A stretch of 64,000 bases of DNA from Paramacrobiotus metropolitanus (taxonomy: Eukaryota; Tardigrada; Eutardigrada; Parachela; Macrobiotidae), in assembly GCF_019649055.1 (NCBI RefSeq), contig NW_026570223.1:3410001-3474000 (forward strand), read 5' to 3'. A program made the translations under genes and the position numbers. Below are positions 3,306 through 36,045 of the stretch, piece after piece; position 1 is the stretch's first letter, and the number at the start of each line of letters is the position of its first letter. The notes under the pieces were generated by a model, which worked only from the letters and a program-made list of their open reading frames with translations, was not told the origin of the DNA and searched no databases.

Positions 3306-3740
3306 TGTCAGAGGCGTACGACTGCGCCTGGTGCGTACGGTCCACACAGGACGTACTTGCACCACTGCTTGCCGTTACCACCTCTCTCGCTGTACGTACG
3401 TGTGCTGCTGCACTGCACTCATCCGCTGAAGCGGATATACGCAGCGCATACACTGAGCCACACTTGCTCTCTCGTTCCTCTCTCGCGGTATGACTCAGCG
3501 TTCATACGCTCGCGTTGGATAGAGTCCAGTCTGCGCATCATCACACAGCTGATGGCACACAGCACGTGTTGGCCGCCAGTTGCTTCTTTCACGCCTTGAC
3601 GGACGCTCAAGAGCTTTTCTAGCACACACTTGCTTGGCCATCACGGCTATTATTCTTGCTTTCCTGCTATACGCAGCATTGTTCCCCCTTTATTTGTCAA
3701 TAAAGCATCACTCGTGATCTCCTCGTGCACATCTGTTACA
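3306..3740 (+). repeat. 5' LTR
   Basis: It is 435 bp with TG...CA ends. It holds an AP-1-like TGACTCA (3491-3497), a polyadenylation signal AATAAA (3699-3704) only about 36 bp from its end (so a short U5), and two small hairpins: GTCC/ACACA/GGAC at 3340-3352 and ATCCGCT/GA/AGCGGAT at 3421-3436. It differs from the 3' LTR at roughly a dozen positions, so the insertion is not fresh. Confidence 0.93.
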
Positions 3741-3749
3741 TGGTAGCAG
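3741..3749 (+). other. Primer binding site, initiator Met tRNA type
   Basis: TGGTAGCAG directly follows the LTR end and is complementary to the last nine bases of animal initiator tRNA-Met (including CCA). The match then stops. A short 8-9 base site is typical of Ty3-like elements. The same site follows the second LTR copy at 5584. Confidence 0.8.
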
Positions 3750-4550
3750 CATCTTTTCTGGTTTTCCTTCCCACGGAACCTTTGAGGAGACGGTGAAGGC
3801 TTCATCTACGGAGAACTCGTGAGGAACCTGAAAGTCACTGTCAGATTGATTACTGAAGTAATCCCTGCTCTGACTTTGATCGGACTGATCTTGCCGTCTT
3901 ACAGCTGAGGAAAACGAGGATCACTGAAGTGATTCTCACCCAGCTGGTGAGCACAGTTTCTTCGTCTCTTCCACACTGAAGAGCACATTCCCAACAGCAC
4001 GGACACTTTCTCTCCCAACTGACGGATCAGACTCGAACGAGAGTCTGCAGCGCGATAGGATTACTCCTTAATACGGGGACCATCGGTTTGAACACCGACC
4101 CGCAACTTTAACGGCGGAATTTTACTCGGAAACGACGGATTCCCGACCTCGGACGGAGGAAATCGACCGGAACCGACACCGACACCGACACTGGTAAAGT
4201 CACGGTCATAGGTCGATTTTAGCCGCAACTAGGTCGGCATTTCACTTTCTAACGGTAGAAAACGATTTCTATCCGTAAAATTTAACTTTTTAACGGTTAA
4301 AAAGTAATTTCTGACGGAGAAACCGACTCGGAATTTTGCTTTTGGTCGAGAACCGACCTGCTAGGTCAACGAACCTGTCTAGACAGTTAGACAAAGGCTA
4401 ACCGGCAACAGGTCGGAAACTCTCCTGTTTTTGATTTCTAACGGTGTTTCGACCACCAGAAAATTTCCTTAATTAATAAAACTAATTTCTAACGGTTAAA
4501 AAACTCAAAAATCCGACTAGATAAACTTTCTAGCCGAGCAAAAATAATTT

Positions 4551-4640
4551 GTTTTTCTCGCGGGAAATAGCGCGAAAATTCTCGAACTTCCTTGTGACGT
4601 CATAACGACCGCTTATCAGTACTTAAGAGGCAGCCAATCA
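4551..4640 (+). promoter_or_regulatory. Promoter-like cluster in the leader, copy 1 (E2F-, CRE- and CCAAT-type)
   Basis: Within 90 bp lie an E2F-like TTTCTCGCGGGAAA (from about 4553), a second E2F-like GCGCGAAAA (4570-4578), a perfect CRE/ATF palindrome TGACGTCA (4595-4602) and a CCAAT box (4634-4638). They are all kept in copy 2. The spacing resembles an RNA polymerase II promoter. It lies 800 bp downstream of the LTR, so it could drive a leader-internal transcript. That is inference from motifs only. Confidence 0.45.
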
Positions 4641-5046
4641 GAGTGCAGGGGAAAGTTCCCATAGCCTAACATAGGCGTGATTCATCGTTTTTTGTAAATT
4701 TTGCACGCGGCTCGCATTCTGTGACGTAGGCAGAAGTGCAAGACCACTTAACCTGTTACGTCACACTGGTCAGCACAGTAGTATAGGACGTACTACACCG
4801 TACTACTATAACGTACTGTACCGTACCATAGTACTGCATATTAACCCTGTGTACTGAGTCACCAACAGACACAACAACAACAACAACAACATCTCACCGG
4901 ACGTTCCTGACCCTCGGAAGTTCCTGAACCAAAAGACGTTCCCGATTTCATCAAACATCCTCACACAGAGGATTGTTCGATTTTCTCTTTTTTTTTAACT
5001 AATAAAACCTTTGAGGCTCCACCAGAGCCGACCTGATTCGACAACA

Positions 5047-5337
5047 ATGTCGAATCCTCGAGAAAACGAATACGCGAGAAAGTTTAACACCGACTATTCT
5101 CGGCGTGCGAACATGACCGGAAAGTACTCACCCGGTACGCCGGTCAGGACAAAAGTCAGAGGCGTACGACTGCGCCTGGTGCGTACGGTCCACACAGGAC
5201 GTACTTGCACCATTGCTTGCCGTTACCACCTCTCGCTGTACGTACGTGTGCTGCTGCACTGCACTCATCCGCTGAAGCGGATATACGCAGCGCATACACT
5301 GAGCCACACTTGCTCTCTCGTTCCTCTCGCAGTATGA
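5047..5337 (+). pseudogene. Truncated gag start fused to an LTR (first copy)
   Basis: The ATG at 5047 (context ACAACAATG) begins the conserved basic N-terminus MSNPRENEYARKF. After about 36 codons the duplication junction at 5155 replaces gag with LTR sequence, and the frame stops at 5337. The product would be a short N-terminal Gag peptide with an unrelated tail, with no expected function. Confidence 0.75.
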
Positions 5338-5583
5338 CTCAGCGTTCATACGCTCGCGTTGGATAGAGTCCAGTCTGCGCATCATCACACAGCTGATGGC
5401 ACACAGCACGTGCTTGCCGCCAGTTGCTTCTTTCACGCCTTGACGGACGCTCAAGAGCTTTTCTAGCATACACTTGCTTAGCCATCAGTGCTTTGTTCTT
5501 GCTTTCCTGCTATTACGCAGCATTGTTCCCCTTTATTTGTCAATAAAGCATCACTCGTGATCTCCTCGTGCTTGTCTGTTACA
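5155..5583 (+). repeat. Internal (second) LTR copy
   Basis: It is similar to the outer LTRs over their whole length except the first base, and is followed by the primer site TGGTAGCAG at 5584. It has no transposition boundary of its own on the left: it is fused to gag codons. It is therefore a product of the tandem duplication, not a nested solo LTR insertion. Confidence 0.88.
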
Positions 5584-6379
5584 TGGTAGCAGCATCTTTT
5601 TCTGGTTTTCGTTCCACGGAGACCTTTGAGGAGACGGTGAAGGCTTCAATTACGGAGAACTCGTGAGGAACCTGAAAGTCACTGTCAGATGATTGCTGAA
5701 GCAATCTCTGCCTTGACTTTGATCGACTGATCTGATCGTCTTACAGCTGAGGAAAACGAGGATCACTGAAGTGATTCTCACCCAGCTGGTGAGCACAGTT
5801 TCTCTGTCTCTTCCACATTGAAGAGTACGTTTCCCAACAGCACGGAATTCTCCCAACTGACGGATCAGACTCGAACGAGAGTCTGCAGCGCGAACGGATT
5901 AATCCAATAATACGGGGACCTTCGCTTTGAACAGCGACCCGCAACTTTACACGCGGATTTCACTTGGAAACGACGGATTTCCGACCTCGGACGGAGGAAA
6001 TCGAGCGGAACCGACACCGACACCGGTAAAGTAACGGTTCTAGGTCGATTTTAGCCGCAACTAGGTCGGCTTTTCATTTTCTAACGGTGGAAAACTATTT
6101 CTATCCGTAAAATTTAACTTTTTAACGGTTAAAAGTAATTTCGACGGAGAAACCGACTCGGAATTTTGCTTTTGGTCGAGAACCGACCTGCTAGGTCAAC
6201 GAACCTGTCTAGACAGTTAGACAAAGGCTAACCGGCAACAGGTCGGAAACTCTTATTTTTGATTTCTAACGGTCTTTCGACCATCAGAAAATTTTCTTAA
6301 TTAATAAAACTAATTTCTAACGGTTAAAAAACTCAAAAATCCGACTAGATAAACTTTCTAGCCGAGCAAAAATAATTTG

Positions 6380-6470
6380 TTTTTCTCGCGGGAAATAGCG
6401 CGAAAATTCTCGAACTTCCTTGTGACGTCATAACGACCGCTTATCAGTACTTAAGAAGCAGCCAATCAGA
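6380..6470 (+). promoter_or_regulatory. Promoter-like cluster in the leader, copy 2
   Basis: Same motif order as in copy 1: E2F-like TCGCGGGAAA, GCGCGAAAA (6398-6406), TGACGTCA (6423-6430) and CCAAT (6462-6466). Conservation of all four, while neighbouring bases have diverged, mildly supports function. Confidence 0.45.
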
Positions 6471-6863
6471 GTGCAGGGAAAGTTCCCATAGCCTAACATA
6501 GGCGTGATTCATCGTTTTTGTAAATTTTGCACGCGGCTCGCATTCTGTGACGTAGGCAGAAGTGCAAGACCACTTAACCTGTTACGTCACACTGGTCAGC
6601 ACAGTAGTATAGGACGTACTACACCGTACTACTATATAACGTACTGTACTGTACCATAGTACTGTATATTAACCCTGTGTACTGAGTCACCAACAGACAC
6701 ATCAACAACAACAACAACATCTCACCGGACGTTCTGACACTCGGAAGTTCCTGAACCAAAGACGTTCCTGATTTCATCGAACATCCTCACAGAAGATTGT
6801 TCGATTTTCTCTTTAACTAATAATAAAACCTTTAAGGCTCCACCAGAGACCTGATTGACAACA

Positions 6864-7001
6864 ATGTCGAATCTCAAGAAAAACGAATACGCGAGAAAGT
6901 TCAACACGGACTATTCTCGGCGTGCGAACATGACCGGAAAGTACTCACTCCGGTACGCCGGTCAGAGACAAAAGTCAGCCGTCCTCAACCGACTCGACTA
7001 A
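6864..7001 (+). pseudogene. gag start, second copy, frameshifted
   Basis: The ATG at 6864 lies in the same context as at 5047 and starts a near-identical peptide. Two one-base insertions relative to copy 1 (near 6951 and 6965) shift the frame, and TAA at 6999-7001 ends it after 45 codons. The main gag frame resumes downstream in another phase. Confidence 0.75.
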
Positions 7002-8718
7002 GTCGGCCGAAGAAGGAGAGACGCAACGAACGGATTCTCCTCGCTGACTCGAATCCAACTTCGGACGATAGTTTCGAGGACGCCAGGGATAAAACATTCC
7101 TGGAAGCCCCAGCTGACGTAGCAGCCCCGTCCCACCCGACCGGGGGATGTGGAACAGCTGCAGGCAGACCACATTGTCTCATGCCGACCAACAGTCGAGC
7201 TCACACAGAGCTCAAGACTCGGTAACGGTCACAAAGGCCACCGAGCTCGGACGGCAATCACCCAACAGGACGGAAGAAGTGCCGAAGCCGACCTCGTCCA
7301 ACATGGGCATACCGACTAACCAAGTCGGACGGAAATCGACCACACAGGTCGAGCGAAAATCTCCGACCAAAGAAGTCGGTGAACAATCACCGATAGGGAA
7401 GCCGACCAACAAATGGTGGGAAGTCGACCAACCGAAGGTCGACCTACCACTAACGAAAGAGGTCGGAGACAACCGACCTCGAACGGAATGGAAAACCGAC
7501 AACAGAAGTCGGCACGTCCAACCGACCACACAGGTCGGAAGGATTTCGCCAAACTCAAAGGTCGGACAACAGACGCCGACCACAGAGGTCGGAGAAAAAG
7601 AAGTCGGTAACAAGCAACCGACTAGCCTGGAACGGCAACCAACCGACACAAAGTTGGACGTGGCCGTCCAGTCGACTAAATCACCGGCGGGAACGAAAGA
7701 TTCCGAGGTACCGCCACGAAGCGGCCCTCACCCAGCTGGATCGCCGACTAACATGCCGGCACCCAACGAACGGGTAATTTCACTGTTGAGCCGACCTTCG
7801 CCAACCGGAAGCGAGCCGACTCGAGCAACCGAAGCTCAACAAACGGTGAAGTCGACCAAGGCGACACAAAGTCGACCTGTCGACCTGAACCAAAGGTTGT
7901 CACCACCAATGTTCGGAACTGGCGAACTTGGTAGTACTCCGTCACCGACAAACGAAGTCTTTGAGGCAACAAACGCATCAAGACCGAATAGTGCGGACGG
8001 ATTCTTCACAACACCACCTAAGTCCGATAAAGAGAACCTCGGATATCAGGCCAGTGCACTCGAATACACGGCCAAGAAGTGGATCGCGGCAACACCGCCC
8101 GAAAAGATCACCGATCTCGACCTACTCCGAGCGAGATGCCATAAACTGATCACAGATCGTTTTGGCGGACAAAATCGTCGACTCGGCAGAAGGATCCTCC
8201 GAAACTCGGAGGACACCCATAAGCTCGAACGGAGGAAATGGGAACGAGACATGGCTGATGCCAACAAGGCCATCGCCACCCAACAACGGGAGATCGATCG
8301 GCTTAACGCTATATTGAAACGAGCCGACCTGCCATGTCGATACGAAGATGACCAAATCGCCATACTTACTGGCATGTTGGAACGTTCAACCGCAGCCGTC
8401 TTCGAAATCCAAAAGGAGCTCGACGAGACGCACAAAGCGCTCGAAGAAGCACAGAAAGACCTGGCCGATGTTCAGACCGCACTGGTCGAGTCGGAACAGG
8501 CGGCAGGGGCGTTCCATCAGCAACTCAACCAGGCCAATGAAGAGGCCGAAGTCTATCGAAACGAAGTCGATAGATATGTGGTGGAACTTAAGAAGGCCGA
8601 TAACGAGATCGACCGATTAACGCAACGAACCGACGAACTCGAGTCGGAAATGGAACTCCTCTCGTCAGAACGGGACGTCGATTCATCGACGCGAACGCCG
8701 GGACATGGGCTTTCCTAA
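7002..8718 (+). pseudogene. gag: gag N-terminal region: Pro/Thr-rich stretch and coiled coil
   Basis: The long open stretch is 7147-8718 (523 codons from an internal ATG, which may not be a true start). Residues 30-250 are rich in Pro, Thr, Glu and Lys, with repeated P-T-x-x-V-G peptides. Those peptides are encoded where the CCGACC-loop-GGTCGG hairpins fall in frame. Residues about 330-510 are strongly helical with heptads and end in a run of E-L-E-S-E-M-E-L-L. This suits the N-terminal (matrix-like) part of a very long Gag that self-associates. No known domain is recognised there. The frame is broken from the upstream gag start and at the 3' end. Confidence 0.7.
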
Positions 8719-9873
8719 CCAAAGGACAGCCGATGTCGACCTGGTGGAAGCAAACGCTCAGCTAGCCGACCAGGTTCATGGACTGAACCAAGTCCCAAGG
8801 AGGAACAGAAACTCCGAGCTCAACTGGAGTACAACCTGAACGAGGCTCGGAAAGGTAAACGAGGCGCAACACAGCCGCATCGTTTACCTGGAAGCCCGCG
8901 AAGTCGAACTATACGACTTCGGCGAACAAGCCGCCCGCAATCACAGAGATGATGCGGCAAATGGACGAGATGGACACGGAAACACGGTGTCTGAGGGAAG
9001 AGAAGAAGCACCTGGAACAAAGCCAGGTCGAACTTCCTTCATACCGGGAACAGTCGGGTTGAACCTCCTCATACCGGACGTCCATGGCACAGGATCAACA
9101 GCCGTCACGAACGATCAGTGACATCCTGTGGGAATTAGCCGACCAGCAAATGGCGGAGAAGGAGAACAACACCTCCCACTTCGTCGGAGTCGTAACGACC
9201 GACCCAAGCGTGGGAACAATCCCACAACCACCAACAGTTCCGGCTGCTCCGAACCGGAACACAATACGTCGACCGCGGCACCGCGAGTGCCAACGTCGGC
9301 GACAACGACGTCTGCCGGTGCATATACCAGCACCTCGTACGCGACGCGGACAACAACGTACGCGCCGGTACCTAACGCGAGAGGAGACGGGCAACAGATG
9401 CCGAACGTCTCTTGAAGACCCGCCACCACCTAATCCGAACTTCTCCGCCAGAACCCGCCGTTCGACTTTGAACGAGCGAGGGCTCGGTCATTCAACACGA
9501 CCGACCAGCGGCAGGACGGACAGAACGGAGAGGATAGCTCCGACCAACAAGGTCGGGTGCCCCCACACCGACTAATACAAGGTCGGATGCCGGCTCAGGG
9601 AACACAGCCCAACCGGTACGGAAGAGTCTACGACCAACCGAGTGGATTCTATCCGCAGGCGCCGAGACAAAATCGAGCGCCCCCTCCACAACAGTATGGA
9701 GGACAGCCACAACGGCCTCGTCACGAAGACCAGGCCCAGGCTCGGTATCCGCAACAGGACGAATACGACGGCTACGACGAAGAAGCCTATCAACAGGGGC
9801 ATACGAAGACCAACAAGGTCACGTACCATATGCCAACCCGCCACCCGCCCCGGCTGCACAACAAGCTGCGCCG
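8719..9873 (+). pseudogene. gag: gag middle region, frames scrambled
   Basis: Short open stretches alternate between frames (for example 9084-9575 and 9557-9886). Composition stays that of the element: Pro-, Arg- and Gln-rich, low complexity. It joins the coiled-coil part to the capsid part. Repeated small indels destroyed the frame. I recognise no domain. Confidence 0.6.
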
Positions 9874-10655
9874 GTGGCACACCTGATTCCTCCGGCACAG
9901 GACCCGGCACATGTTGCTTTGGTACGAGCAATATCTCACGGACGTCGGCAACCCTTACCGCCGTTCGACGGAGACCACACCAAACTTCATGGGTGGCTTA
10001 AACAGATCCGAAGCCTGTATCGTCAAGCCCAACAATGGTACGAAGACGATCAGACTTTCATGTCCGACTTGGTAGCCCGACTAGATGGCCAAGCGGAAGA
10101 ATGGCATACCCTCGAAGCCGCCGGAGAACCACTCGGCGGATGGCCAGTCAACGTATGGCTGACCAAATTCGAGCAGCGATTTGCGGACAAGAACAAAGAA
10201 GTGAACATGATATCCCGAATTAACAAACGGATATTTCGTTTCGGCGAAGAAACGCCGGAACAGTACTACGACGCAATGATGTTCATGAAGTCCCAAGTCC
10301 CCACGATTACCGATCAAATAATAATGTACCATCTCAAGGAGAACATCCACGAACCCAAACTACGGGAAGCCCTGGAAATCAGGATGCCAGCGACACCAAT
10401 CGAGTTCCGCGACTACTTACGGAGCTTCGTCAATGGCAAGGAAATGTACGAGGTGCGCAGACAACGCGATGGCGACTACGCCAGAGTCCGGGCAGCAACA
10501 CCTGCACCTGTACCGGCTCCACCTCCGGCGATACCGCAACAGACCGGATATCAGCCGCACATGATGCCGGGATACCAAACTCCAACGGCACAGTACGGAC
10601 AACGGAGTCCGGCGCCGACGCCACCGGTGCAACAAGCACCAGTCCAGCAACAGAC
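9874..10655 (+). pseudogene. gag: Gag capsid domain (Ty3/gypsy Retrotrans_gag-like)
   Basis: The frame 9874-11019 holds a helical capsid-like region: PPFDGDHTKLHGWLKQIRSLY, then AEEWHTLEA, WLTKFEQRFAD, ETPEQYYDAMMFMKSQVP and a LREALEIRMP helix, over residues about 25-200. The FDGD...W...I pattern and the aromatic spacing match gypsy Gag capsids, which multimerise into the particle shell. After about 10490 the sequence becomes Pro/Gln/Ala-rich. The useful frame then switches to that of the nucleocapsid near 10650. Confidence 0.8.
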
Positions 10656-11243
10656 TTGGGCGAGCGCGGCGGCAGCAAACCTGAACCCCCCGGCACCTGG
10701 AATCGGAGCCCCGTTAACAACTACGGAGGCCCAGGTTATGGCTCGGGCGGTAACCAAAACAACACAGGTTTTGGTTACGGACAGAACCCTAACCAGGGAT
10801 ACTCCGCATACGGCCCACCTCCCACACAGGGATATGGCGGCGGAGGTTTTGGTCGCGGAAAAGGACGTGGCGGCGGAAAACGCGGTCGCGGCAACTTTCC
10901 TAACCGCGGCGGAGGCGGCAACCAACAAGGGAACCGACCTCCCCAGGCACAACAAAGTGCTCGGCAATACACGACCTACGTGGACCGGATGGAACAACTG
11001 TTCCTCCAATGGTCGTTAGCGGACAGCTTTACTTGCAACTTCTGCAAGTTCAGCAATCACGACCAAGCACGATGTGCGTTCATCGGCACTCGGGTACAGG
11101 ACAACCCGAATCGCCGTTGGTTCGAGGATTGGCATACGCGATACCAGACGGAGGACCGTTGGGATCGGCCAACCCGAACTATGCACTGGTCGTGCCGCCC
11201 CGCGCCAACGCCAACAAGGTGGAGGTTCGGGCGGCGCCGGTAA
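10656..11243 (+). pseudogene. gag: Gag nucleocapsid: RGG-like box and CCHC zinc knuckle
   Basis: The 195-codon frame has a Gly/Asn/Tyr-rich segment, then a GRGKGRGGGKRGRG box, then a zinc knuckle C-N-F-C-x4-H-x4-C at 11034-11075. This is the retroviral-type C-x2-C-x4-H-x4-C motif that binds genomic RNA. The frame differs from the capsid frame by a shift near 10650. A programmed shift at that point would be unusual, so a mutation is more likely. Confidence 0.85.
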
Positions 11244-11419: not shown

Positions 11420-12543
11420 ATGAGCGCCGGTGACTCATTCGACCTCCAACATCCGACCGAACCACCGGACAAGGATAATCCGACTAACCAACCGCTTAAT
11501 TACCGGAACGAATTGAACTTTCCTACGACGATCGAGGAAGGCTATCAACAGGTAGCAACCATCCTCCAACTACTCGGACTGAACGAAAACAGTTCCGAGG
11601 AGGATTTCGCGAAAGCGATGTCGACCTCCACAAAGGAGGCGGAAACGGCTCGGAAGTTAGCCGCTCAGCTCGGCGTGTACGCCAACAATGGCACCGTCGA
11701 AGCTTGGCCCGGGATGCAACAGGCACTCGAGGCAACCGACCCAGCGCATCAACTTGGCGCTGGAACGTCGGAGGTCGGAACGCAAGAATTGCCCGACCTA
11801 AGCAGCGCAAACAATGCGACTGCGCCGTCCGTCACACAAAGTGACGTAGTACGGCCCGGCCACGGAAGTTGGACCGGATTGCCGGTGAGGATAAACTCAA
11901 CCGAGCAGCCCAGACGAGGCCCAAGACGTGGAGGACCGGGACGCCGATCCACGCACCGGGGCAACAGAAACTTCCCAATGTATCATCCGGACGCGCAACG
12001 GCTAGATACGCTGCAACAATGGCAGCTATCGACCTCACCGAAGAACCGGAAGGAGTCGAACTATGGGAAACAGTCCCATTGGGAGCACAGGTACCCGCCT
12101 ACTCTCGGCCGGAGGAAGCGGACCTCTCCCAGCCAAAGGAGCAGCCGACCAGAACGGTAGCTGGCTCTCGAACATTCCTCAACCTCGACTATATGTGGTC
12201 GACATTGAGGCCAACAGAAGTCTCAATGGAGGAACGGATACTAGCACAGGCACAACGGTCCGGAACCGCCGAAATACCGGAGGACGGAGTAGCTAACCGA
12301 CCCGAGGTACAAAAAGTGGTTGAAGTCGGAGTTGAATCCACACAAGGTTCAACTCAACAGCCAACCGACCACGGACCGGTGTCGTTAATCCCCATCAAAC
12401 CAACGGTGCGGGAAGTGACCTTCGAAAAGGGAACACACAAGAAACCGAAGACAGTTCGAGCTTGGACACACGAAATCCAAGTCGGATCCACGCCCACACT
12501 GGTGATGTTGGATACCGGAGCGGAAACCTCGCTCATCGAATAA
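11420..12543 (+). pseudogene. pol: Gag-Pol linker and N-terminal half of the aspartic protease
   Basis: Two overlapping frames (11420-12160 and 11869-12543) cover a polar linker and then the retropepsin start. The hydrophobic strand before the active site and the catalytic signature L-D-T-G-A at 12508-12522 are intact (Asp codon at 12511). Thirty bases on, a TAA at 12541-12543 cuts the domain in two. The same frame reads on afterwards, so this is a point nonsense mutation. The enzyme normally dimerises and cleaves Gag-Pol. Confidence 0.8.
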
Positions 12544-12861: not shown

Positions 12862-15300
12862 TCGGCTTGATCACCCGGCGAACTCCACACGTAACATCTG
12901 CCGCGATTGCCGGGATACGAACCGCACTCTGCTGGAGGAACTAGCACTCCATAACGTGATAGAGCACTATCAGAAACGGATACGCGACGGTACACTACGA
13001 CCGGCTAGGACTGTACTGAAGTCTATCCCGATACCAGAGGCATCCGCTGACGCGGATGCCATGAACCGAGAGGAAGTACGACAAAAGTACCGAACTTGGT
13101 TCACGGGAGTTCGACACTTTCTCGACCAACGGACGTCGGAGATAGTGACCACTCTGCAACAGAACGGAGCGGTAACCCCCGACCAGATACTGGACGCACA
13201 ACAAACGTGTGAACCGGTAATCGCCCTCATGAACGACATAGAGAGGAAGCATGGGAATGGGAAGATGAACGAATTCCGATCCATCGACAGTACATGGAAT
13301 ACGGACTTCCTATACCACCCCCGCTGGAAATGCCGTGCCAGGAACTAGGCTCTCAACTCTTCGCCTACATGCAGCGAGTAAGGTTGCACGGAGAATCGTC
13401 AACGACTGCATTTTGGCAACGGTACGGCGAAGACACCGCCATAACGCGGCAAGTTCCTAGACCGTTACCACCACTTAAGCCGCAAACTCCAACCGACGTG
13501 AAGTTTGCGAGTAGCCCGGCGAAGCCTCAAGGAAACGTAGTCCTGGAGGAAACCGATCAACCTTATCGGTGTGCTATCTGTCAAGACAATATTGACGAGG
13601 TAGTACGAGCAATAAAAGCTCATCACGACCTAACTTGGTCGGACGACAGACCGTCGTCACCGTCGCCTCCGCAACAGGAACGGAAGGTAGATCGCTTTCG
13701 GAAGCCCCAACAGACGAGCACCCGATGGCTGAGCAACATAGGCTCACAGCCAGCCGATCTTGAGAATCAGGACGGAGCAAGTCGACCTACCCAACCGACG
13801 GATAAAGTCGACCAACTCGAACCGACCACAAAGGTCGGATTCGAAAACATGTCAGAAGTCGACCCCGAAAACGGATCGGAGGTCGAATTCGAAGATTATC
13901 AGTCGGACGACTCGGACATACAAAGTACGAGCGATTCGGCGGACACGGACTCCGATAACCGACCCTCGGAAGAATCCGAGGAAGACGACGACGAAGAATT
14001 CGATCTGTCAGTCCGATACTGTAAGACGGATAAACCGAGCATAAACGACTCGGACGACTCGTCATCGGAGGACGAAGAACCGCCCTACGATGTCCGGCTA
14101 ACTACAGCATTGCGGTCTATAGTTCACACAGAATTTATAGACGAGCAACCGGAACAAACCGAACAGCCCAAGCCAGTCGACCCCGAACAACAGGAGGAAC
14201 TCGACCAACTTAAGGCTTTGTGGGAATTCGGAGGAGGTAAACCGGAGGAAGACGATTTCCGACCTCCAACAATCGTCATTCAGCAGTTGTCAACCGAACA
14301 ACCGACCTTGGCTAACTTGACCGACCAACAGAAGTCGGAGCATTTCAACACATGGAAGGCACGAGTCGCCAAAGTCAAGACGATTGACGAGCTGGACCTG
14401 GACAACAAATGCCCAGAAGTCCACCACTTGAAGCTGGATCCTTACGTAGAGACGAAAGCGTTAGACCGACAAGTTGTCTTTAACAGCGAACGAGTCTCTC
14501 TCCCACCATGGTCAACATGTTCGATCAAGGTACGGACGGCCAAACCAATGGATCCGAGAAGACGAATTTACTTCTCTACCCTACAACGGGTAGTCCGACC
14601 TATTCGGCCAATCGAAGCCAAGATCGACATCCGACCTCAAGTCGACACGGCCTGGATAAACATCCAGAATACGACTCACCAAACGAAGGTGTTGAAGAAA
14701 GGCGTACGACTTGGCCATATGCAATATGCCGATGTCTACGAACCGGAAATCAACAATGAATTCGTCGAATGGGAACTCCCACACAAAGTGGCGAAGACAT
14801 GGCCCCCTACGCGGGAAATAAAGCCAAAACCCCAGTTCGAAGTTTTCGAGGCAACAGGAGTTCGGGCCCAACGGAAGGTCAAACTCATACCTCGGGCCGT
14901 AACCATGGTAGAAGTCGTCCTGGACGTACCGGTATCCACGGACCAGAAACTTATGTACCTAGGTGAATCCGACCCCAAACGAGACGGAGTCGAATTCATG
15001 GACGGCGTAACCAAGCATGACGGGAAACGATTCACCGTCATGGTGGCAAACCATACTCATCGAGAGGTCACCTTACGCAAAGGTGCACCGATGGGTCGAG
15101 CCGAAGCATTCACTATGATGACGGACGACCAGAAGGTCGAAGAAGCACGAGCCAACACGGCTGAGGTAGAAAAGGAAGACGCGGAATCCCAGGAGGAGCG
15201 ACGGAGAATCATCGACTCCATGAACTTCGGTAAAAACTTAACCGATGAGCAACTAGCTAAACTGAGGCAGTTGCATGGGATTACCGGACTGTATTTCCGA
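12862..15300 (+). pseudogene. pol: Long spacer between protease and RT: zinc-finger-like motif, acidic region, pre-RT domain
   Basis: The frames 12956-13348 and 13294-15549 lie here. In the second, residues about 90-110 show C-A-I-C-x13-H-H, a possible zinc site. Residues 155-245 are extremely acidic (runs of D, E and S). Residues about 360-640 form beta-rich units with NHTHREVTLRKGAPMG, the usual region just ahead of gypsy RT. Most Ty3 elements have only a few hundred bases here; this one has about 2.4 kb. What the finger and acidic part do is unknown. Confidence 0.7.
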
Positions 15301-18946: not shown

Positions 18947-18955
18947 GCCATAGGT

Positions 18956-27656: not shown

Positions 27657-29056
27657 AGCCGGAGGCCAAAGAGACGACCAAACCGAAGTCGGACTCTACG
27701 GTAAAGACGCCGAAGCCTAATCCGGCCAAGCGGCACAAGTCATCCGATGACTTGGATATTTCGGATGCCGGCCCACAAAGGACCGAGCAAAAGGAGAAAG
27801 CTCAACAACCGCACGACAAGGATGCGGTTGAGCGAAAATTCAAAGAAGTCATGGAGCGGACCGGCACAAAGCCGGCTAAGACTTCAGGAGGTCGGCTACG
27901 GAACCCACCAAAACCGCCGACTCCGATCGAACAACCCCAGCCCTCCACATCTAAGCAACAGTCTGACGTAGAATCCGACCAGATCTCGGACATCGAGGAA
28001 AAGGACTCAATCTCCGACCATGGAGAAGGTGATCCTTATGAAGGATTTAAGGGCGACCTGAAAGAAATGTTCGACCATGGAGCGGACACTGATGAATCAC
28101 AGTGGCCAGCCCCAGACGATGCGCGCGAGCGTCTTCCGGACGAACAGCCGGATGACCCGGTCGATACATTAATCCGTACCGTCCGAGTACACGTCGAAAT
28201 TGTCAGGAGCATCGAAAACGCCAGGAAAAACGGCGTGGACATTTACCAGTCCTTGGTCCGAGACCTGTCCAACAACATCCAAGTCGGAGGCGAAACCGGA
28301 AAATGGTTGACGCATCAACTCATGATGCAGATCGTCGCCTGGACTTTGGATTTCGGATTAGCAGTAGCCGTTCACCGACAATGGGGACGGATGGCCGAAC
28401 TGCTCCCACCGGACCTTATCAAAGCACTTAAAAGTGCAGCCGCCAGGAATGCGGACGATACACCGACTAGAATTGCACGATGTATCGGATACATCCGGAA
28501 TCCCCGTGGATCGACTTTGGTCCAGATCGCCCGTGTATATAACGTGATGTACATGGACAAGAAGGGGAATATCGACGACATCATCATCAATAGGATAAGC
28601 GACCGGATTACGTCCTTGGTCGAACAACACACCCTTCAGACGACTAACGCGGAACGAGATGTACCGGTACGGTATACCGTGCCTAACTTCATACCGGAAC
28701 AACATCGGCGTGAGTTTAACCTCCGGATGTCTTATGTCAACACGGACAAGCCTCCGGCTGGTACGGAACCGACCGAAGAATACAGCGACTCCAACGAACA
28801 ACCGTCGGACGATGCAGCCGCCTTGCTGCATATAGCTCGTACGGCTGGACAGTCGTCACAAAGACGAGTCCAAGTCTTACCCCGACCTCGAGCACCCCAT
28901 GAACCGACAACATATGTCGGCACGGCAGCAGCTCCAGGGGGACGAGCAAGTACGGCAAAACCGACTAGGAGCGCGAAAGGACGGTTCATTCCGAGGGACG
29001 TACAATCACTCCCGCCGTCCTCGCCCATGGAAATTTCCCGGAACCGGAAGACTTGA
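27657..29056 (+). pseudogene. 3' ORF, segment with a compact helical domain
   Basis: The frame 27752-29056 has 434 codons. After a disordered acidic opening, residues about 130-330 form a dense region with few Pro. It includes W-L-T-H-Q-L-M-M-Q-I-V-A-W-T-L-D-F-G-L-A-V-A-V and further helices, likely a globular domain. The stretch is mildly hydrophobic but carries charges nearby, so I do not call it a membrane anchor. Confidence 0.5.
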
Positions 29057-29575
29057 CCCAACAGAAGGAAAGTCAAAGTCGACTAAGACGAAGTCGACTA
29101 AGCCGGCCAAGAAAAAGAGCCGAAGTCATCGGAACCGACCTCGTCATCCGAGGAAGAAACCGAAGATGATGACGACGACGATTTCCAAACACCTGGGAAC
29201 GGATCGCCGAAAGACGATGACGATGACGACGACGAAAATGGTAAACCACCACCACCGTCGAACCCGGCACCCCAACAGCAGGGCGAACCGGAGATACCGG
29301 ATAGACAACCGGAAGAGAAGGACAGCAGCGACAAAGCTGAAGAGTCCAAAGGCAATGAAGACGATGGTGGAGTATATATCCCTCGTCAGTACGGTAAACG
29401 GATACCGATAACTCCTGACACTGACGAGCGGCCACTTCTCTCCGAATGGAATGAGGACACCATGGAAGTGTTGCCGGACGACATTCCCCCGTTGACCAAC
29501 GTTAGGGTCAAATATACTGGCATCAAATCGGCCTCAAAACCGAAGCCGAGTGTATCGGAATACGATGCCTGATGG
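29057..29575 (+). pseudogene. 3' ORF, acidic linker ending at a nonsense codon
   Basis: In the frame that leads into the next segment, this stretch is Asp/Glu-rich with runs of aspartates, then Pro-rich. TGA at 29570-29572 interrupts it, and the same frame continues straight on, so the stop looks like a point mutation. Confidence 0.5.
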
Positions 29576-30247
29576 ATGTACACATTCGCCGCCCTGAAGG
29601 CCTTGGCTACACGTGGACCGAAATTCGCCACACCAAGAATCGCCTTCAAACTCCTCCAACATTGGAAGGTAGACGAGAAGGGCGACTGGCGACAACTTAG
29701 CCAGAATAACGTGCGACATTACTGCGACCTGGGATACCATGCCGGGAAGATAATACGTACGTACACCAGCACAAAGCGGATGTACTACGAGTTCCCACCG
29801 GCTAAAAAGGACCCGGCCCCTTCAACATATGAAGGATGGACACACGCCATCGAAGCGTGTATGGAAATGTCCTGGCATCCCGACGGACTTACCCGTGGAG
29901 AAATACTCCACCAACTTACAGCACGGTTCGAGTTCGAGTGGACAGCAGCAGAACCGCAGTTGGTCGACCCCAAATACAAGCCTAAACCGGACGTAACTGC
30001 CGGACGCAAGAAGTATTCCCTGGAAGACGAATTGGAATTCGTCCTATCGAAGGCACTCTACCAACAAAGATTTGCCACAAACACCGATAAAGTCCAGGGC
30101 GGCCAACGGTTCATCGCATTAAACCCATCAACTCACCGGCACGGACACTTACCGAAGGAACGATCCACCTCGGCACAACCGACCGAGTTGACCGACTCGC
30201 ACCAAGCAAGTCGGCCGGAGCCGACAGAAGCACCTACACGGGAGTGA
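29576..30247 (+). pseudogene. 3' ORF, two winged-helix-like units
   Basis: In 223 codons two units have the rhythm of winged-helix domains: helix, helix, long recognition-type helix, then a beta wing with aromatic residues. The first is ALKALATRG...FKLLQHWKV...NNVRHYCDLGYHAGKIIRTYTST...YYEF. The second, from about residue 85, is HAIEACMEMS...TRGEILHQLTARF...DELEFVLSKALYQQRFATN...RFIAL. Linker histone and related DNA-binding folds show this layout. This is a fold guess from pattern only. Confidence 0.4.
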
Positions 30248-32393
30248 GGGAACGCAGAACGCGTTGGAGGAGAGGCATAACCGACCTCCCTCCATTGACA
30301 CCACACAGGCGTCATCGACCAACAGAAGTCGACTTACCTCATTAGACGACCACAAAGGCGTCTGGGACCAGCTCGAGAACCGACCTGGCCCGACCGTAGT
30401 AATTATAGGGTGTAAATCATAGGACACAACCGAGAAACGGTTGGCTTACCTTTGTTTTGACAGACTCGAACGGAAGCTTACACGGTGGACTGCCAACAGT
30501 GCGGGGATAACGCGACGAGGGACAACAACAGATTGCCTTGCGCGCAGTGTATCGTCTCCTTCACAAATGAACGGGTTCCCGGCACCGGACCGCAACACCG
30601 AGCTCAGGCGGCGGCACTTTACATTAATGTTGTCGCTGGTAACTTGAGCGCATATCGGTACCTGGCCGGCAGAGAATACCTCGTCAACCAATTAGAGTCG
30701 CATGAACAGGACAATTTGGCTACCATCCAGCGACAACGTAACCCGCGACCCGAGATGGGAAGGAACCCGGCCACCAGTCTTAACGGATAGACTGTGGGAG
30801 TACCGCCAGCTGCAAGACGCTAACCGTCAATTGGAGGACCAGAAGAAGATCAGAGAGGTCGACAAACGAATCGCCTCGATGAAGGTCCATCCCCCACCGA
30901 CCGACTATGAACCAGAGATAAAAATTCGGTTACCGGCACCCACACAGGGTCGCTCGGATAGCGAACAGCTCATCCACGATGTACGAGACGTCTTCGTCGG
31001 AGACCCACACCGACCAATGACTAGCGCATCGGTGACAATGATAATGAATATGCCGGACGGAACCCAACAGCCGGTTACCTTTACTCCGGCGACCCAGGAA
31101 CAGTTGATGGCAATCCCACACAGGGCAACGCCAGTAGTTACACAGGCTCGCCCAACTGTTTCCCAGCAGATTCCCCAACATGGAACCCATGGAACTCGGA
31201 CTCAACCGGCAACTCAACAGCAGCAGCGCCGACCGAGTAAAAACCTAGCGGGACACGACCTCCGACACAGGATTGGTCCTGTCGATCTTCGAGACAGAAT
31301 CGAAGAGCAACGCGCAGTCATTCGCCAAGTCGGAAAAGAGCCGACCAGACCTCCACCAGGAAAACGGACTGGATCTGGAGAAACGGGAATCGGACTCACG
31401 GTCGACTTAACAAATAAGTCGAAACGTAACTTTGTCCCACCCGAACAGCAGCCGGAAGCCCATCAGGCGGAACCGGCGGCCGAAGTCCCAGCTGAACTGG
31501 CAGCTCAACCAGAACAAATGGACGTCGAAGTAGCCGACCAGATGGCGCAACTACCACAAGTAGAAGTGCCGATCCGAGAAGACCCTCGTTATGACCGCGC
31601 TCGACAACAAGGAATCGAGGTCGTCATGCTACATCCCACCGAACGGACAAACCACATTATGAACGTCATGAATTACGAGGAACGGAATCGACCACAAATT
31701 TGGCGAATGGTAGAAAACCTCCGTCAATTCCTCGTCCGATCTGGATACCAGACGTTACTGGAACAACATCAGTGGCAACCGGACTTCAACATGAATGCGC
31801 ACACAGCACAGAATGTTGAACATCCGTACACCAGATCGAATGCGTTACCGTCGATGACCGACCCGGTCTTGCTGAATGTACCACTTTACAGCCCGGACGG
31901 GACGCGTGCGAGCCAACTAGGAGCTCGGGAATACCCCCATGATGAGTTGGAGAGTATTGCCCAGTTCGTCATCACGGACGCCCACCCAGCCTTCGTAATA
32001 ACCGCGGCTCGGGCAGCACTGGATTTAACACAGTACCTTCCAGAAGGGGAAGTCGACATGGCCCAGGACGGAGTCACAGCATTCCTGCGATTTATCTTCG
32101 CAGCTCGGCTCGGCAATTACTTTTGCCACTACACCCTGTACGGCCTATACCAGAACGAAATGATACCAGCGGCTGTGGAAACCCTCGTCGCCCAACTCGG
32201 CACACCAATGAGAAGTGTTATCCTCGCCATCTGGATGCGCGACCTGCTGTACACCCACGAACGGTATGCGACAAAGTATGCCTTTCGCGAGGATCACGTA
32301 GATCTCAGCGACGACGCGACCCGATTCATCAGCTGGTACCGACAAAACAAGACTTTGCCTAGCGGATTTAACTCATCGCCCTACGAACCTTAG
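30248..32393 (+). pseudogene. 3' ORF, C-terminal globular segment
   Basis: The frame 30702-32393 has 563 codons, overlapped by 30485-30790 in another phase. That shorter frame has a Cys-rich stretch, C-x2-C-x9-C-x2-C (DCQQCGDN...LPCAQC), a possible zinc-ribbon. Residues 1-280 are Pro/Gln-rich. Residues about 290-560 look globular, with many aromatics and helices, ending before TAG 32391. I do not recognise the fold. Confidence 0.5.
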
Positions 32394-32682: not shown

Positions 32683-33463
32683 CCCACTCGAACAAACCGA
32701 GGGACTTAACGCCGAGAAACGGCACGGTCGAGAACCGACCTGACTGAGAACCAGTCTAACGGACAAATGGCACCGTCGAGAAACGACCCCGGAATGGACA
32801 TTTTTCTTCAGTTTTCTCTCCCCAGAAACCGACCAAACCATGTATACAGCGGAAGTCAACGATGACTTTGCCAGAATGCTGACTACACAAGTCAGCCGGA
32901 TTCTTCGGTTTTGACCCGGACATGGATGGTTAGACCTGACAAACCGGTTTTTCCACCGTTCCGGTACGTCTCCCGAGGAATCCCTGGACAGAACTGAGCA
33001 AACCGACCTCAGTTCCCCCAGCATGGCATGAACAGATCGTGAACCACATCTGCTAACATAGCAGATCGACAACCACGTTCTGCGACCATCGGAGCCAACA
33101 GAAGCCCCAATCCGCGTTACATGGAGCCGACCGATAGTTACATGGTACAGATCACACCATTAACCACGACCGGCTATGAAGATTACTCCGGCCAACCGAC
33201 TCCGGAGCATAGACCGAGAGGATTACGCTAACGTGGCGCTGAATACGTCGCTGCGTGTTCACCGCCATGTTTGCCGAGCACCCGTGGCCAACTTCGGAAC
33301 CGGGTAGCCGAGCAGCCTTCACCAGTGTAAATAGCGGATATCCCTCGGCCGAGCTGCCAACAGTGCAGGAAGACTCGGATTTGACTATACGTACTTGAGC
33401 GACCAAAGGTCGACTTCGTACTTCACTCATAACTTGGAGATATAACAGATATCGCGGCACTAG

Positions 33464-33506
33464 CCGACCACAAAGGTCGGTTGTGCAAGCCGATCACAAA
33501 GATCGG
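33464..33506 (+). repeat. Two neighbouring hairpins differing by paired changes
   Basis: CCGACC/ACAAA/GGTCGG at 33464-33480 is followed ten bases later by CCGATC/ACAAA/GATCGG at 33490-33506. The loop is the same, and one base pair differs on both arms (C-G to T-A). Confidence 0.9.
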
Positions 33507-33589
33507 TTTTGGAAAACTCGGAACAGATTGTTCAGAGAGTTGAAGTCGGAATCGCAACGATGCATGATCGCCGAACTACGACTTGCTAC

Positions 33590-33676
33590 CTTAGCCGATC
33601 ACACAGATCGACTAAGTATACGGTAGCCGACTAACGAGAAATCGACATTATGGCCGACCACACAGGTCGACCATAA
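33590..33676 (+). repeat. Two extended hairpins with the same loop and the same mismatch
   Basis: CTTAG-c-CGATC/ACACA/GATCG-a-CTAAG (33590-33616) and TTATGG-c-CGACC/ACACA/GGTCG-a-CCATAA (33648-33676). Outer arms are unrelated between the two but perfectly self-complementary. Both keep a C-A mismatch at the same level. Confidence 0.9.
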
Positions 33677-34634
33677 CGGCCAACAGAAGTCGCCATGAAG
33701 AATGAACGGAAGCAGTAGCCACGTGGTACTTGACCGATTCTCCGTTTGAACCCAGATCTACAGGAACTCAACTAGGAACCTGTACCCGGAGTCCAACCGC
33801 AGTCTCCCCCGGACGATATCGGGTAAACCAGCCGATTCACCGGTGACCACGACTACGCGCGTCTCGAACGTGCTGCCATTACCTGAAGAGGAACAGCGAC
33901 GGTGATTTGGCCGCCACTCCAACGACTCCGCCGCGACCTGCTCCCCCATGTCTTCAATGGAACACCTTAGGCAGACCGAGTTAGAACACTCGGCCGGCAC
34001 CCTTAACGAACCCCCGATGACGATGACCACCTGCCCGCAACAGTACTGGCCAGTTGGCTAACGTCACCGGCAAAGAAAATTTCCCCGTGGACCTGAGTTG
34101 TCTACCCCCAACAGAAGCGGCTAGGCGTCTCAGGTTCGCGACAAAACAAAATGGAAGAACTGGATCTGACAACCTCAGGGACTTGCATGTGCATGAAGCT
34201 TTTAAACCAAAGAGCTTGGCTTGTCAACCGGGGCCACAAAGACCCTTAGTGTTGTAAGCGAGCACAATCGCATGACGAAGCGCCAGTCACTCGGCCAACA
34301 GACGCCAAGGAAACTCCTACTTCGCAGGACTCGGCGGCCCAGAGGCAAGTCATTCGGATCAACAAGCCAACAGTAGCTCGGATCCGACCTAGAAGTTCAT
34401 GTCGGAAAAGTTCACAGGAGAAACGGAGTTGTGCTGCTGAATGTCCTTCTGCCAGTCTGAACTGACAGTAGGATATCCGAACAACGGAAACCCGGTCGAC
34501 TGTAGCCGTACGCACAGAACTCCTAAAGCAAGTCGGAAGTTTCCGAACGGAGGTCGGAAGTACACGACAACAGGTCGGAAAACCCATCAGAAGTAGAAAA
34601 CCGACCTCCCAGCCGAAGAATTTTGCCTTTTCGA

Positions 34635-34848
34635 CGGATGAACACACAGTTCATCCGACTCGAAGAAGTCGGAAATCAGCCGACCTCGGAATCCCGACAT
34701 GGATGGCCGACCTCGAATGAAGGTCGGAAGTGACCGAATAGAAGTCGGAAGGATACGACAACAAGTCGGCAAAGGCATTTGGAAGTCGAGAACCGACCTC
34801 CTGACGGAAAAACTTAGCCTTCGGACGGATGAACACACAGTTCATCCG
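34635..34848 (+). repeat. Duplicated 9-bp-arm hairpin within a 190-bp tandem repeat
   Basis: CGGATGAAC/ACACA/GTTCATCCG occurs at 34635-34657 and again at 34826-34848. The flanking sequence (CCGACCTCC upstream, TTAGCCTT-like before it) is also repeated. Confidence 0.88.
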
Positions 34849-36045
34849 ACCTTCCGAAGTCGACCATAACCGACCACAAGTCGGAAGTCGGAGACCCAGT
34901 CAACATGACCGAAGACGATTGATCACTTTTCGCGGTGGATGAATCCGACCTGAAGGCACTTATTTAGCCCCACATGGGCATGTTATTGCAGGTTAACCCT
35001 AGTCGACCACCGACGGATAGGATGACCGACCTCGACAGAAGGTCGGATAACAACGGAATATACCGGATGGAAGTCGACCGGACGCTTCCACCGAACAAAC
35101 TCATGATTTCCGATCGGACCTTCGAGCCAGTTCGACTCGGATTACTCCAAACCAGGCTCGTGGTAGCAGATTAAACGGTTGTAACCGACCACTTTTAAAC
35201 GGAACTGCTGTGCATGACGACCACAAAGGCCGCATGACTTACATACAGCTTTTTCCGACCTGAACTTTCAGAATTCGGAACATAGCCGAATTCCCCTTAG
35301 CCGCCGATCGACTTATCGGTAGGCCGACCTTGGTCAAACCGACCTTGGTCCTATTCCCCATCCAGAGAGGATGCCTCGGCATTTGCATCAGCAACAGTGC
35401 CTCTCTATCCCGAACGGACGGATACGAGTCGGAAGTAAGTGTTTAACCGTGCTTATCCGACCTCGGTGAATGTAACCGGTTACGACGGGTAGCCCGGGAA
35501 CTGATGCCCTGGACCCAACTTTACCGGACGAAAGTGGACAGGAGACCCCGTGGAGACTCAATCGCCCCGTGGACGTCATCCTAGTCGGAATAGGACCCCC
35601 GGACAGATTTTTGCATTTTTCTAGCATTTCTCCTAACAAACGGAATTGTATTTTTCTAGTTCGATCTCTTTGACAGATCTGTTTTGTAACCCCTTTTGCT
35701 CACTGGAATTGTGATTAAACTTTATTTACTTTCTTTCGCGCTGCATAAACTTTCATTACATTTTTTTACATTGTTCTCCGCTGCCAACAGACGCAAGAAG
35801 CCAGCCAACAGAAGCATCACCGGTCCAACGAAACGCCCGAGCGGCTTCCGGATTTCCCGGCCGTGAGTGGCTTCCACTCATGGGTTCGGAAGTGAAGAAG
35901 GGACGGTCGACCAGACACCGGACTCCCACTGCCAGAGGACGCGTACCGGCGACCCCACATGGGTCCGACCGGAGAGTCGTGCGGTACTGGTGCGGTACCG
36001 AGTCGGAGCATCCTTCGCGGGAGCTCGGATTCCCGCCCAGAGGCA

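Follow-up and report, generated by a model that had tools for sequence, protein, structure and literature searches.

A giant Ty3/gypsy retrotransposon in the window

The analysed window, a 64,000-nt stretch of Paramacrobiotus metropolitanus DNA (assembly GCF_019649055.1, contig NW_026570223.1, positions 3,410,001 to 3,474,000, forward strand; window numbering is used throughout), contains a Ty3/gypsy LTR retrotransposon of about 33 kb at 3306-36478, hereafter family A (Table 1). The two tandem 5' LTR copies and the truncated right copy are 94-97% identical, with 96.8% identity between the initial 436 bases of the first copy and the right fragment, and Pfam places reverse transcriptase and RNase H upstream of integrase, the domain order of Ty3/gypsy elements. 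A tandem duplication lies inside the element at about 18197-21233.

The CCHC motif of the Gag-like region (CX2CX4HX4C) was recognized by pattern and lies inside stretches that blastp aligns to two related families, B and C. For every family, the copy sampled has this pattern in its Gag-like ORF, within stretches that are 26-41% identical between families. Pfam found no match in the Gag-like stretch 10224-11240 and called no CCHC in the Gag-like ORFs of A, B, and C. The small ORF downstream of integrase contains a second zinc-like pattern near 30491 that is also present in B; the C counterpart aligns at 30% identity, and the pattern was not found in it. Scanning the window against Rfam at the gathering threshold gave no matches to curated RNA families.

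Table 1. Features of the family A element and its hairpins (window coordinates).
Feature	Position	Strand	Remarks
First 5' LTR copy, tandem with second	3306..5153	+	93.8% identity to second copy, 1864 aligned columns
Second 5' LTR copy	5154..6990	+	
Right LTR, initial ~433 bases only	36046..36478	+	
Coiled-coil ORF, upstream of CCHC ORF	7117..8718	+	coiled-coil matches below Pfam cut-offs
Gag-like region, two overlapping frames, one CCHC motif near 11034	9538..11243	+	weak DUF4939 match, E 0.015
Reverse transcriptase / RNase H	15404..16722	+	Pfam RVT_1, RT_RNaseH, RT_RNaseH_2
Integrase core	17257..18312	+	Pfam rve
Small ORF, zinc-like pattern (four Cys), alternative candidate reader	30461..30790	+	by pattern; related ORFs in B and C
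LTR hairpin GTCC-ACACA-GGAC	3340..3352	+	copies at 5188-5200, 36080-36092
LTR hairpin ATCCTC-ACACA-GAGGAT	4957..4973	+	
Loop ACACA, 6 bp	7197..7213	+	
Loop ACACA, 6 bp	7336..7352	+	
7-nt loop A-ACAGA-A, 5 bp	7496..7512	+	C-G/T-A exchange among copies
CCGACC-ACACA-GGTCGG	7522..7538	+	
CCGACC-ACAGA-GGTCGG	7576..7592	+	loop strongly altered elsewhere: ACAGA in 5/21 copies
Loop ACAAA, 5 pairs	7643..7657	+	
7-nt loop A-ACAAA-G, 6 bp	9010..9028	+	
7-nt loop A-ACACA-G, 11 bp	10750..10778	+	
Loop ACAAA, 5 pairs	11625..11639	+	
Loop ACAAA, 6 bp	11830..11846	+	
7-nt loop containing ACACA, 10 pairs incl. G-U	12329..12355	+	
CCGACC-ACAAA-GGTCGG	13822..13838	+	
Loop ACACA, 7 pairs incl. G-U	21790..21808	+	
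7-nt loop G-ACAGA-A, 6 bp	23078..23096	+	
Loop ACAAA, 5 bp	24684..24698	+	
Loop ACAGA, 6 bp	25224..25240	+	
Loop ACATA, 6 bp	28904..28920	+	
Loop ACATA, 6 bp	29819..29835	+	
7-nt loop G-ACAGA-A, 7 bp	31286..31306	+	
Loop ACAAA, 8 bp	31402..31422	+	
Loop ACACA, 7 bp	32878..32896	+	
CCGACC-ACAAA-GGTCGG	33464..33480	+	not in listed long ORFs
CCGATC-ACAAA-GATCGG	33490..33506	+	other copies CCGACT-ACACA-AGTCGG: two compensatory pairs
Two-helix hairpin, loop ACACA	33590..33616	+	pair 2 exchanges T-A/C-G
Two-helix hairpin, loop ACACA, one C·A mismatch	33648..33676	+	gapped in most other aligned copies
Loop ACACA, 9 bp	34635..34657	+	GATGAAC/GTTCATC here; GATAGAC/GTCTATC in some copies
Loop ACACA, 9 bp	34826..34848	+	
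7-nt loop A-ACATA-G, 8 bp	35271..35293	+	

Hairpins with a constant loop and variable arms

A first-pass annotation of this DNA had described short hairpins whose arms change from copy to copy while matching within each copy around a near-constant loop, ACA(C/A/G)A, and all eleven that it listed are present where it placed them. On the plus strand of the internal region (6991-36045) we counted 237 ACANA sites, of which 45, 35, 23, and 15 are flanked by perfect arms reaching 3, 4, 5, and 6 bp or more, respectively. Permuting the 3' flanks among the same sites (2000 permutations) gave means of 4.8, 1.7, 0.7, and 0.3 (maxima 13, 9, 5, and 3), and a separate set of permutations gave 1.8 for arms of at least 4 bp; the duplication makes a few sites count twice. 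The minimum free energy fold of 85 nt contains the hairpin for 59 of the 67 motif hairpins and for 21 of 170 other ACANA sites. Past pair 5, a second helix lower in the stem likewise occurs more often than expected (A, 17 vs 1.0; B, 3 vs 0.4; C, 10 vs 1.4). Genome-wide, CCGACC and GGTCGG enclose 5-nt loops of any sequence at 419 places, compared with 18 for the reversed pattern, and CACANAG is found at 91 sites over the whole window where 31 are expected.

Chance or a bias toward the words CCGAC/GTCGG has a practically negligible probability of explaining this excess. Arms of the CGACC/GGTCG type are indeed common. The permutation retains the words adjoining the loop and still yields 1.7 hairpins against 35 observed; once sites with CGAC/GTCG close to the loop are excluded, 203 sites are left and 22 of them have hairpins, compared with 1.2 on permutation (maximum 5). 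The excess therefore persists beyond the word bias. The family is also missing from the host flanks, as previously claimed: arms of at least 4 bp flank 0/203 (plus) and 1/177 (minus) ACANA sites on the right and 0/21 and 0/20 on the left. The minus strand of the element has none at 20 sites.

All four letters, T included, occur at loop position 4, while positions 1, 2, 3, and 5 are almost invariant, so that the core of the earlier loop stands and its restriction at position 4 gives way to ACANA. The loop preference is sharp, since eleven of twelve one-base variants give 0-3 hairpins, the other being AGANA (6 vs 0.9). Loops of 7 nt arise where a mismatch such as A·G closes the ACANA loop. The free position argues against base pairing of the loop. 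Hairpins are distributed over LTR, gag, pol, and 3' region; the coiled-coil ORF alone contains nine of 4 or more pairs, counting G-U, and these occupy every frame. Loops use all three reading frames, with an uneven spread in family A (13, 2, 7). Both the hairpin structure and the loop code are well supported.

Family-specific loops and RNA-level evidence

With arms of at least 4 bp, families B and C show excesses at loops of their own: 19 of 180 CAANA sites in B (1.2 permuted) and 56 of 1099 YANC sites in C (4.6 permuted). The own-loop counts of A, B, and C were each reached by 0 of 1000 permutations; the sampling covered three families, with B and C represented chiefly by one copy each, and the pooled copies behind the counts are homologous rather than independent. 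By piece, the own-loop signal is present in 3/4 for B and 4/4 for C. Off-family loops are at or near chance in four of six cells (CAANA in A, 2 vs 0.9; YANC in A, 2 vs 4.8; ACANA in B, 2 vs 0.4, and in C, 2 vs 0.5) and raised in two (CAANA in C, 5 vs 1.0; YANC in B, 9 vs 4.6). YANC is raised outside these families as well: the right host flank gives 9 vs 3.9 and a gypsy copy D gives 3 vs 0.5.

RT/RNase H identity is 81-84% between A and families C and B. Across the RT alignment, hairpin columns recur inside families and none is common to different families. Two results count against the explanation favoured below. The RT region of B has no CAANA site with 4 perfect pairs (0/31; other copies, 0/87), though 11 of the 87 sites in the other copies have 4 of 5 pairs. 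Subgroup A' (L079, L080) has perfect arms at 1 of 60 sites (0.25 expected) and 4 of 5 pairs at 6 (1.35 expected).

Among A copies, 13 of 87 pair positions changed on both sides, in coding and noncoding parts. Single stem mismatches are G·U in 28/99 motif hairpins and 112/1031 decoys (p = 7e-6), while A·C is not enriched (22/99 vs 246/1031, p = 0.8), which points to sense-strand RNA. Stem sequence is thus free and pairing conserved, as in packaging signals, on the evidence of the covarying pairs and G-U enrichment. As counter-evidence, A·C cells (70) exceed G·U cells (43) among A copies, and re-dealing the 3' letters among copies hardly lowers pairing (637 observed vs 622 shuffled, of 786), a weak control here because most columns do not vary. 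The excess of RNA structure also extends to the minus strand of element parts (z -4.0 to -14.3) and beyond these hairpins.

A candidate dispersed code for RNA packaging

Many stem-loops with a common loop motif are thus spread over the genomic RNA. We lean, with moderate confidence, toward the view that they serve as repeated sites of RNA recognition and most likely act as dispersed packaging (assembly) signals, with a protein encoded by the element, most likely Gag, as their reader. A single RNA-binding protein, most likely Gag through its CCHC part, would recognize the loop on any stable stem: ACANA in A, CAANA in B, and YANC in C. Through many such contacts over about 30 kb, the protein would choose the RNA of its own element and contribute to its compaction into particles, and if loop and reader diverge together, co-resident related elements would come to use different loops. 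The occurrence of three loops in one host argues against a single host reader. It is a possibility just short of evenly balanced that each giant LTR family marks the whole length of its genomic RNA with dozens of private-loop hairpins for its own Gag, that the code switched between families while sites turn over, and that co-resident elements in this way tell their own RNA from their relatives' and compact RNAs of about 30 kb. Both Gag as reader and packaging or compaction as purpose are inferred.

The reader could be another element protein, since Gag is not specially diverged and there is a second zinc-like pattern. The ORFs after the integrase span about 14 kb and include that at 30461-30790; several of them differ between families as much as Gag does (27-59% identity), and the post-integrase ORFs scanned (ten in A, one in C, three in B) had no Pfam match over the cut-off. 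Such a protein might export a very long RNA from the nucleus, control its translation, or stabilize it, instead of packaging it. We regard this as rather unlikely, since signals of these kinds are usually local, whereas the hairpins span LTR, gag, pol, and 3' region. It is improbable that genome-wide ordered structure protects the RNA against nucleases or host silencing, with the loops kept by a host factor or by the fold alone. Structure is present in all element regions, the stability of 100-nt windows lacking an ACANA hairpin also far exceeds that of shuffles (z -26.7), and the RT regions of 12 other copies are structured too (z -4.7 to -13.4); yet protection predicts neither a sharp loop code nor a separate loop per family in one host.

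The first-pass annotation had offered three readings. Its protein-binding DNA lattice is disfavoured because G·U and not A·C is enriched and the minus strand lacks ACANA hairpins. More generally, cruciforms or inverted-repeat sites for integrase, a transcription factor, or a chromatin protein are very improbable: the inverted-repeat arms are visible as DNA too and A·C cells are common in decaying copies, but the constant part is the unpaired loop while the arms are unrelated from site to site. Scars of a reverse transcriptase that folds back and copies one arm would account for perfect arms of unrelated sequence and are scarcely plausible, since they predict none of the fixed loop, the compensatory changes among copies, and the family-specific loops; the fixed loop contradicts them. 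The remaining reading, an RNA packaging or condensation code, fits best of the three, given the sense-strand hairpins, the covariation of their arms, the strict loop preference, and the different loops of the two related families, with packaging as the probable RNA-level role.

It is an open question how LTR retroelements select their own RNA and make it compact (PMC4974528). Ty1 and Ty3 each rely on Gag to package their own RNA; the packaging determinants are not clearly defined, scattered RNA sites likely contribute, and the needed cis-acting sequences, unlike the present hairpins, lie at the RNA ends (PMC4974528). The available text of that review mentions no element-wide constant-loop family. 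The sites described here are scattered, can be counted straight from sequence, and differ between related families of one genome. They yield predictions as to the protein partner of each loop, making the idea of dispersed packaging signals testable in retroelements, and offer natural loop/reader pairs for studying the evolution of RNA-protein recognition. Similar codes could be found by scanning for loops whose flanks pair more often than chance.

Burro of planarians comprises giant gypsy-like LTR retrotransposons of >30 kb with very long polyproteins carrying MATH, BIR, ankyrin, and BCL2-like motifs (PMC6431247). The tardigrade element resembles it in kind and total length, and the subset of its ORFs scanned gave no Pfam match to MATH, BIR, ankyrin, or BCL2 motifs; the accessible part of the Burro paper does not mention a hairpin family (PMC6431247). 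Single-stranded RNA viruses (MS2 and others) have multiple dispersed packaging signals, likewise many scattered stem-loops with a common recognition motif on varying sequences (PMC6281560). Unlike these, the present case, in which protein contact is predicted, is an LTR retroelement of about 33 kb whose loops (ACANA, CAANA, and YANC) differ between related families. Hepatitis B virus, with a genome of about 3 kb, differs in virus group, capsid protein, and motif. It is nevertheless a reverse-transcribing element whose packaging signals are dispersed stem-loops with a common loop motif, RGAG, recognized by the core protein (PMC7612645).

Constant-loop hairpins in family A

The element copy in the window is rearranged or recombined, as its tandem 5′ LTRs and partial right LTR show, and its reading frames are broken. 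Ten ORFs scanned downstream of the integrase gave no Pfam match above the cut-off. Since related copies keep long frames in this post-integrase part (in locus L092 at 1145–8824, 2559 aa), intact frames do exist. The sense strand is T-poor (16%) across 6991–36045, and the host flanks differ in this respect. The coding parts of copies from two related families of the same genome, B and C, are T-poor too; copy D, a further gypsy-type element, is not.

Features of the window around the family A element
Feature	Position	Strand	Remark
Host gene piece, Arf-like	1732–2333	−	
Ty3/gypsy LTR element	3306–36478		internal part about 29 kb
Two tandem 5′ LTR copies	3306–6990		93.8% identical to each other
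RT–RNase H	15404–16722		
Integrase	17257–18312		
Tandem duplication, about 1.5 kb	18197–21233		95% identical; coding part
Post-integrase coding sequence, about 14 kb	18312–32393		no Pfam relatives in ORFs scanned
Small ORF, four-cysteine zinc-like pattern near 30491	30461–30790		pattern also in B (L096, 897–1742); related ORF in C
Right LTR, first ~433 bases only	36046–36478		
Host gene piece, STAS domain	38198–38775	−	
Host gene piece, ion channel	61262–61786	+	

A first-pass annotation of this DNA had described a family of short hairpins with a constant loop and variable arms. All eleven hairpins that it named are present. On the sense strand of 6991–36045, 35 of 237 ACANA sites carry perfect arms 4 bp or longer, versus a mean of about 1.7–1.8 and a maximum of 9 in 2000 permutations of the 3′ flanks among the same sites. 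When sites with CGAC/GTCG near the loop were removed, 22 hairpins were left (1.2 expected), and we can thus exclude chance and the CCGAC word bias of the element as the source of the excess. The family is absent from the host flanks, as had been claimed (ACANA hairpins at 0/203, 1/177, 0/21 and 0/20 sites), and the minus strand of the element yields 0/20. Allowing one mismatch in five pairs gives 67 sites against 5.3 expected, or about one per 430 nt, at uneven intervals (mean 501, sd 514 in a similar set, n = 57). In minimum free energy folds of the 85-nt context, 59 of these 67 sites form the apical loop, versus 21 of 170 other ACANA sites. A further helix past pair 5 is also in excess (17 versus 1.0). 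The loops fall in all three frames and outside ORFs as well, which rejects a protein-level repeat, as the earlier annotation had stated.

The loop of family A is a sharp code. Among the twelve classes of one-base variants at positions 1, 2, 3 and 5, eleven occur in 0–3 hairpins with 0.5–2.2 expected, the exception being AGANA (6 versus 0.9). The description of a loop that hardly changes is accurate for these four near-fixed positions, but position 4 is free rather than confined to C, A or G. The closing pair is C-G in 38 of 67 hairpins, with A-T and A·G also found. At 7582 the loop is lost in many copies, ACAGA being kept in 5 of 21.

The arms match within each copy even though their sequence varies, and paired changes between copies occur in coding and other parts of the element. 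Examples are CCGATC/GATCGG to CCGACT/AGTCGG at site 33496, GATGAAC/GTTCATC to GATAGAC/GTCTATC at 34644, and GACGC/GCGTC to GACAC/GTGTC in coding sequence at 7969. Hence, the stems are conserved as pairing rather than as sequence. For this analysis 20 other copies per region (33440–34860 and coding 7150–8000) were taken, each set of 20 from 40 scored candidates. Copies gapped at a site, or with an aligned loop other than 5 nt, were omitted there, which left 7 of 21 rows at site 33660, 16 of 21 at 33601 and 20 or 21 of 21 at the other 13 sites; site 7409, mostly an indel, was excluded. Both sides changed at 13 of 87 pair positions (15 sites). Distinct rows contributed 28 compensatory cells, along with 43 that are G·U, 70 that are A·C and 63 that fail to match in some other way; A·C exceeds G·U among these family A copies in a count that includes position 6, which lies outside the stem at several sites. 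The surplus of A·C may reflect free decay of inserted copies. When the letters were dealt anew among copies, 622 of 786 cells still paired, compared with 637 observed, so the argument leans more on the exchanges given above than on a global statistic.

Loops of the related families

The genome (170 Mb, 533 contigs) yielded 126 scored RT matches including that of the window, with 71–100% protein identity, and several of them sit in long open frames. In a separate listing of RT relatives, which covered 120 of 1152, identity reaches no more than 44%. A channel exon from the host flank matched one unnamed protein. Twelve of the 126 were taken around the RT for counting, among them L088, which is 92.6% identical to the window; loci L001–L008 (8) and L009–L038 (30) lie outside all counts. 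Host-like ends, recognized by base composition, were trimmed from L091, L093 and L096 before the counts and left in place for the unbiased loop scan; that of L094 was trimmed only for the second-helix, loop-permutation and strand/RT-alignment counts.

Nine distant copies (L081–L087, L089, L090; 62–65% DNA identity around the RT, 71–85% RT protein identity) contain no ACANA hairpin with four perfect pairs in 4.5 kb each around the RT. With four of five pairs, one ACANA column appears in three of four B copies and one in two of five C copies. Unbiased motif scans of longer pieces from two of these copies returned other loops, CAATA/CAANA for family B (copy on contig C4) and TANC/CAAC, that is YANC, for family C (copy on contig C23). 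By permutation, the own-family counts are 35 versus 1.8 (A, ACANA), 19 versus 1.2 (B, CAANA) and 56 versus 4.6 (C, YANC). Off-family loops gave 2 versus 0.9 (CAANA) and 2 versus 4.8 (YANC) in A, 2 versus 0.4 (ACANA) and 9 versus 4.6 (YANC) in B, and 2 versus 0.5 (ACANA) and 5 versus 1.0 (CAANA) in C. YANC hairpins exceed expectation in the right host flank too (9 versus 3.9), as they do in copy D (3 versus 0.5), so part of the family C signal is unspecific. By separate piece, CAANA hairpins occur at 8/58, 5/72 and 6/23 sites in B, with 0/31 around the RT, and YANC hairpins at 12/363, 22/443, 15/152 and 7/141 sites in C. Four other C copies around the RT show YANC at 23/598 sites versus 2.5, and three other B copies show CAANA at 11/87 versus 1.5, the latter only with one mismatch allowed; being homologous, these copies do not give independent counts. 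When the RT regions are aligned, the same hairpin columns come back inside a family and none is common to two families, with two A/C pairs lying close (813/815 and 3201/3192).

In subgroup A′ (L079, L080), whose DNA is about 80% identical to that of A, few of the A positions are kept and the signal is weak. The subgroup has few perfect ACANA hairpins and an excess of 7-nt loops CACNGAN (8 versus 0.2), which may mark a code in transition. The 4 kb of copy D (L097) show no strong loop family in the unbiased scan. Clusters of CCGACC-nnnnn-GGTCGG with other loops, each spanning a few hundred bases (C3:2996438–2996793, C5:1825287–1825669, C6:2581831–2582081), perhaps represent another element family.

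Molecule and candidate reader

Hairpins with exactly one non-Watson–Crick pair at positions 2–5 were compared with decoy hairpins carrying other loops. G·U is found in 28 of 99 motif hairpins of the three families versus 112 of 1031 decoys (Fisher p = 7e-6), and A·C is not raised (22/99 versus 246/1031, p = 0.8). The excess comes mainly from B (9/21) and C (13/51), with 6/27 in A (A decoys 39/376). A control-free count in family A gave 35 A·C versus 7 G·U, and included positions 6–8, outside many stems, on a T-poor strand. If selection acted on the DNA, or on the opposite strand, A·C would be expected to be accepted equally; that G·U alone is enriched counts against both. Together with the 0/20 minus-strand hairpins this disfavours the protein-binding lattice proposed at first, taken as a DNA structure, and likewise a minus-strand function. 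Another early proposal, a scar of RT fold-back, is contradicted by the paired arm changes between copies and by the loop counts per family.

A constant loop on arbitrary stems, with another loop in each of three related lineages within one host, is what is expected of an element-encoded reader; such a protein would recognize the loop along the RNA. A single host reader would need to read three codes, and kissing loops or antisense pairing fit poorly with loops that are not self-complementary and have one free position. The natural candidate is Gag. Gag-like ORFs of each sampled A, B and C copy contain one CX2CX4HX4C pattern within aligned stretches that are 26–41% identical between families, while the A RT/RNase H piece is 81–84% identical to C and B. 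A PDB sequence search with the Gag-like ORF of family B gave only a chance-level match. Packaging or compaction by Gag is somewhat more likely than not as the role of the hairpins; that each family has its own private loop read by its own Gag is close to an even call, a shade below it. The main rival, another RNA-level role read by a different element protein, is rather unlikely. Speaking for it, and against Gag, are the ORFs after the integrase, which diverged about as much as Gag (27–59% identity), and the second zinc-like pattern near 30491 and in B.

RNA structure that protects the element instead of packaging it appears distinctly improbable. The sense strand of LTRs and internal parts is more structured than shuffles (z −5.2 to −16.5), as is the minus strand (−4.0 to −14.3; flanks −0.6 to −4.8). 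Windows lacking a motif hairpin still reach z −26.7, and around the RT in 12 further copies (within L079–L090) the excess is strong as well. It is possible that element genomes carry genome-scale ordered RNA structure.

A review of Ty1 and Ty3 leaves the packaging determinants open (PMC4974528). In literature on giant LTR elements, LTR packaging stem-loops, dispersed signals and ordered retrotransposon RNA, covered mainly through open-access titles and abstracts, we found no element-wide family of constant-loop hairpins. In RNA viruses, many stem-loops sharing a recognition motif act as dispersed packaging signals, according to a review (PMC6281560), and the anatomy described here, as read from sequence, matches theirs. 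In principle the hairpins would be a variation on such signals; the surprising part is a private loop for each family.
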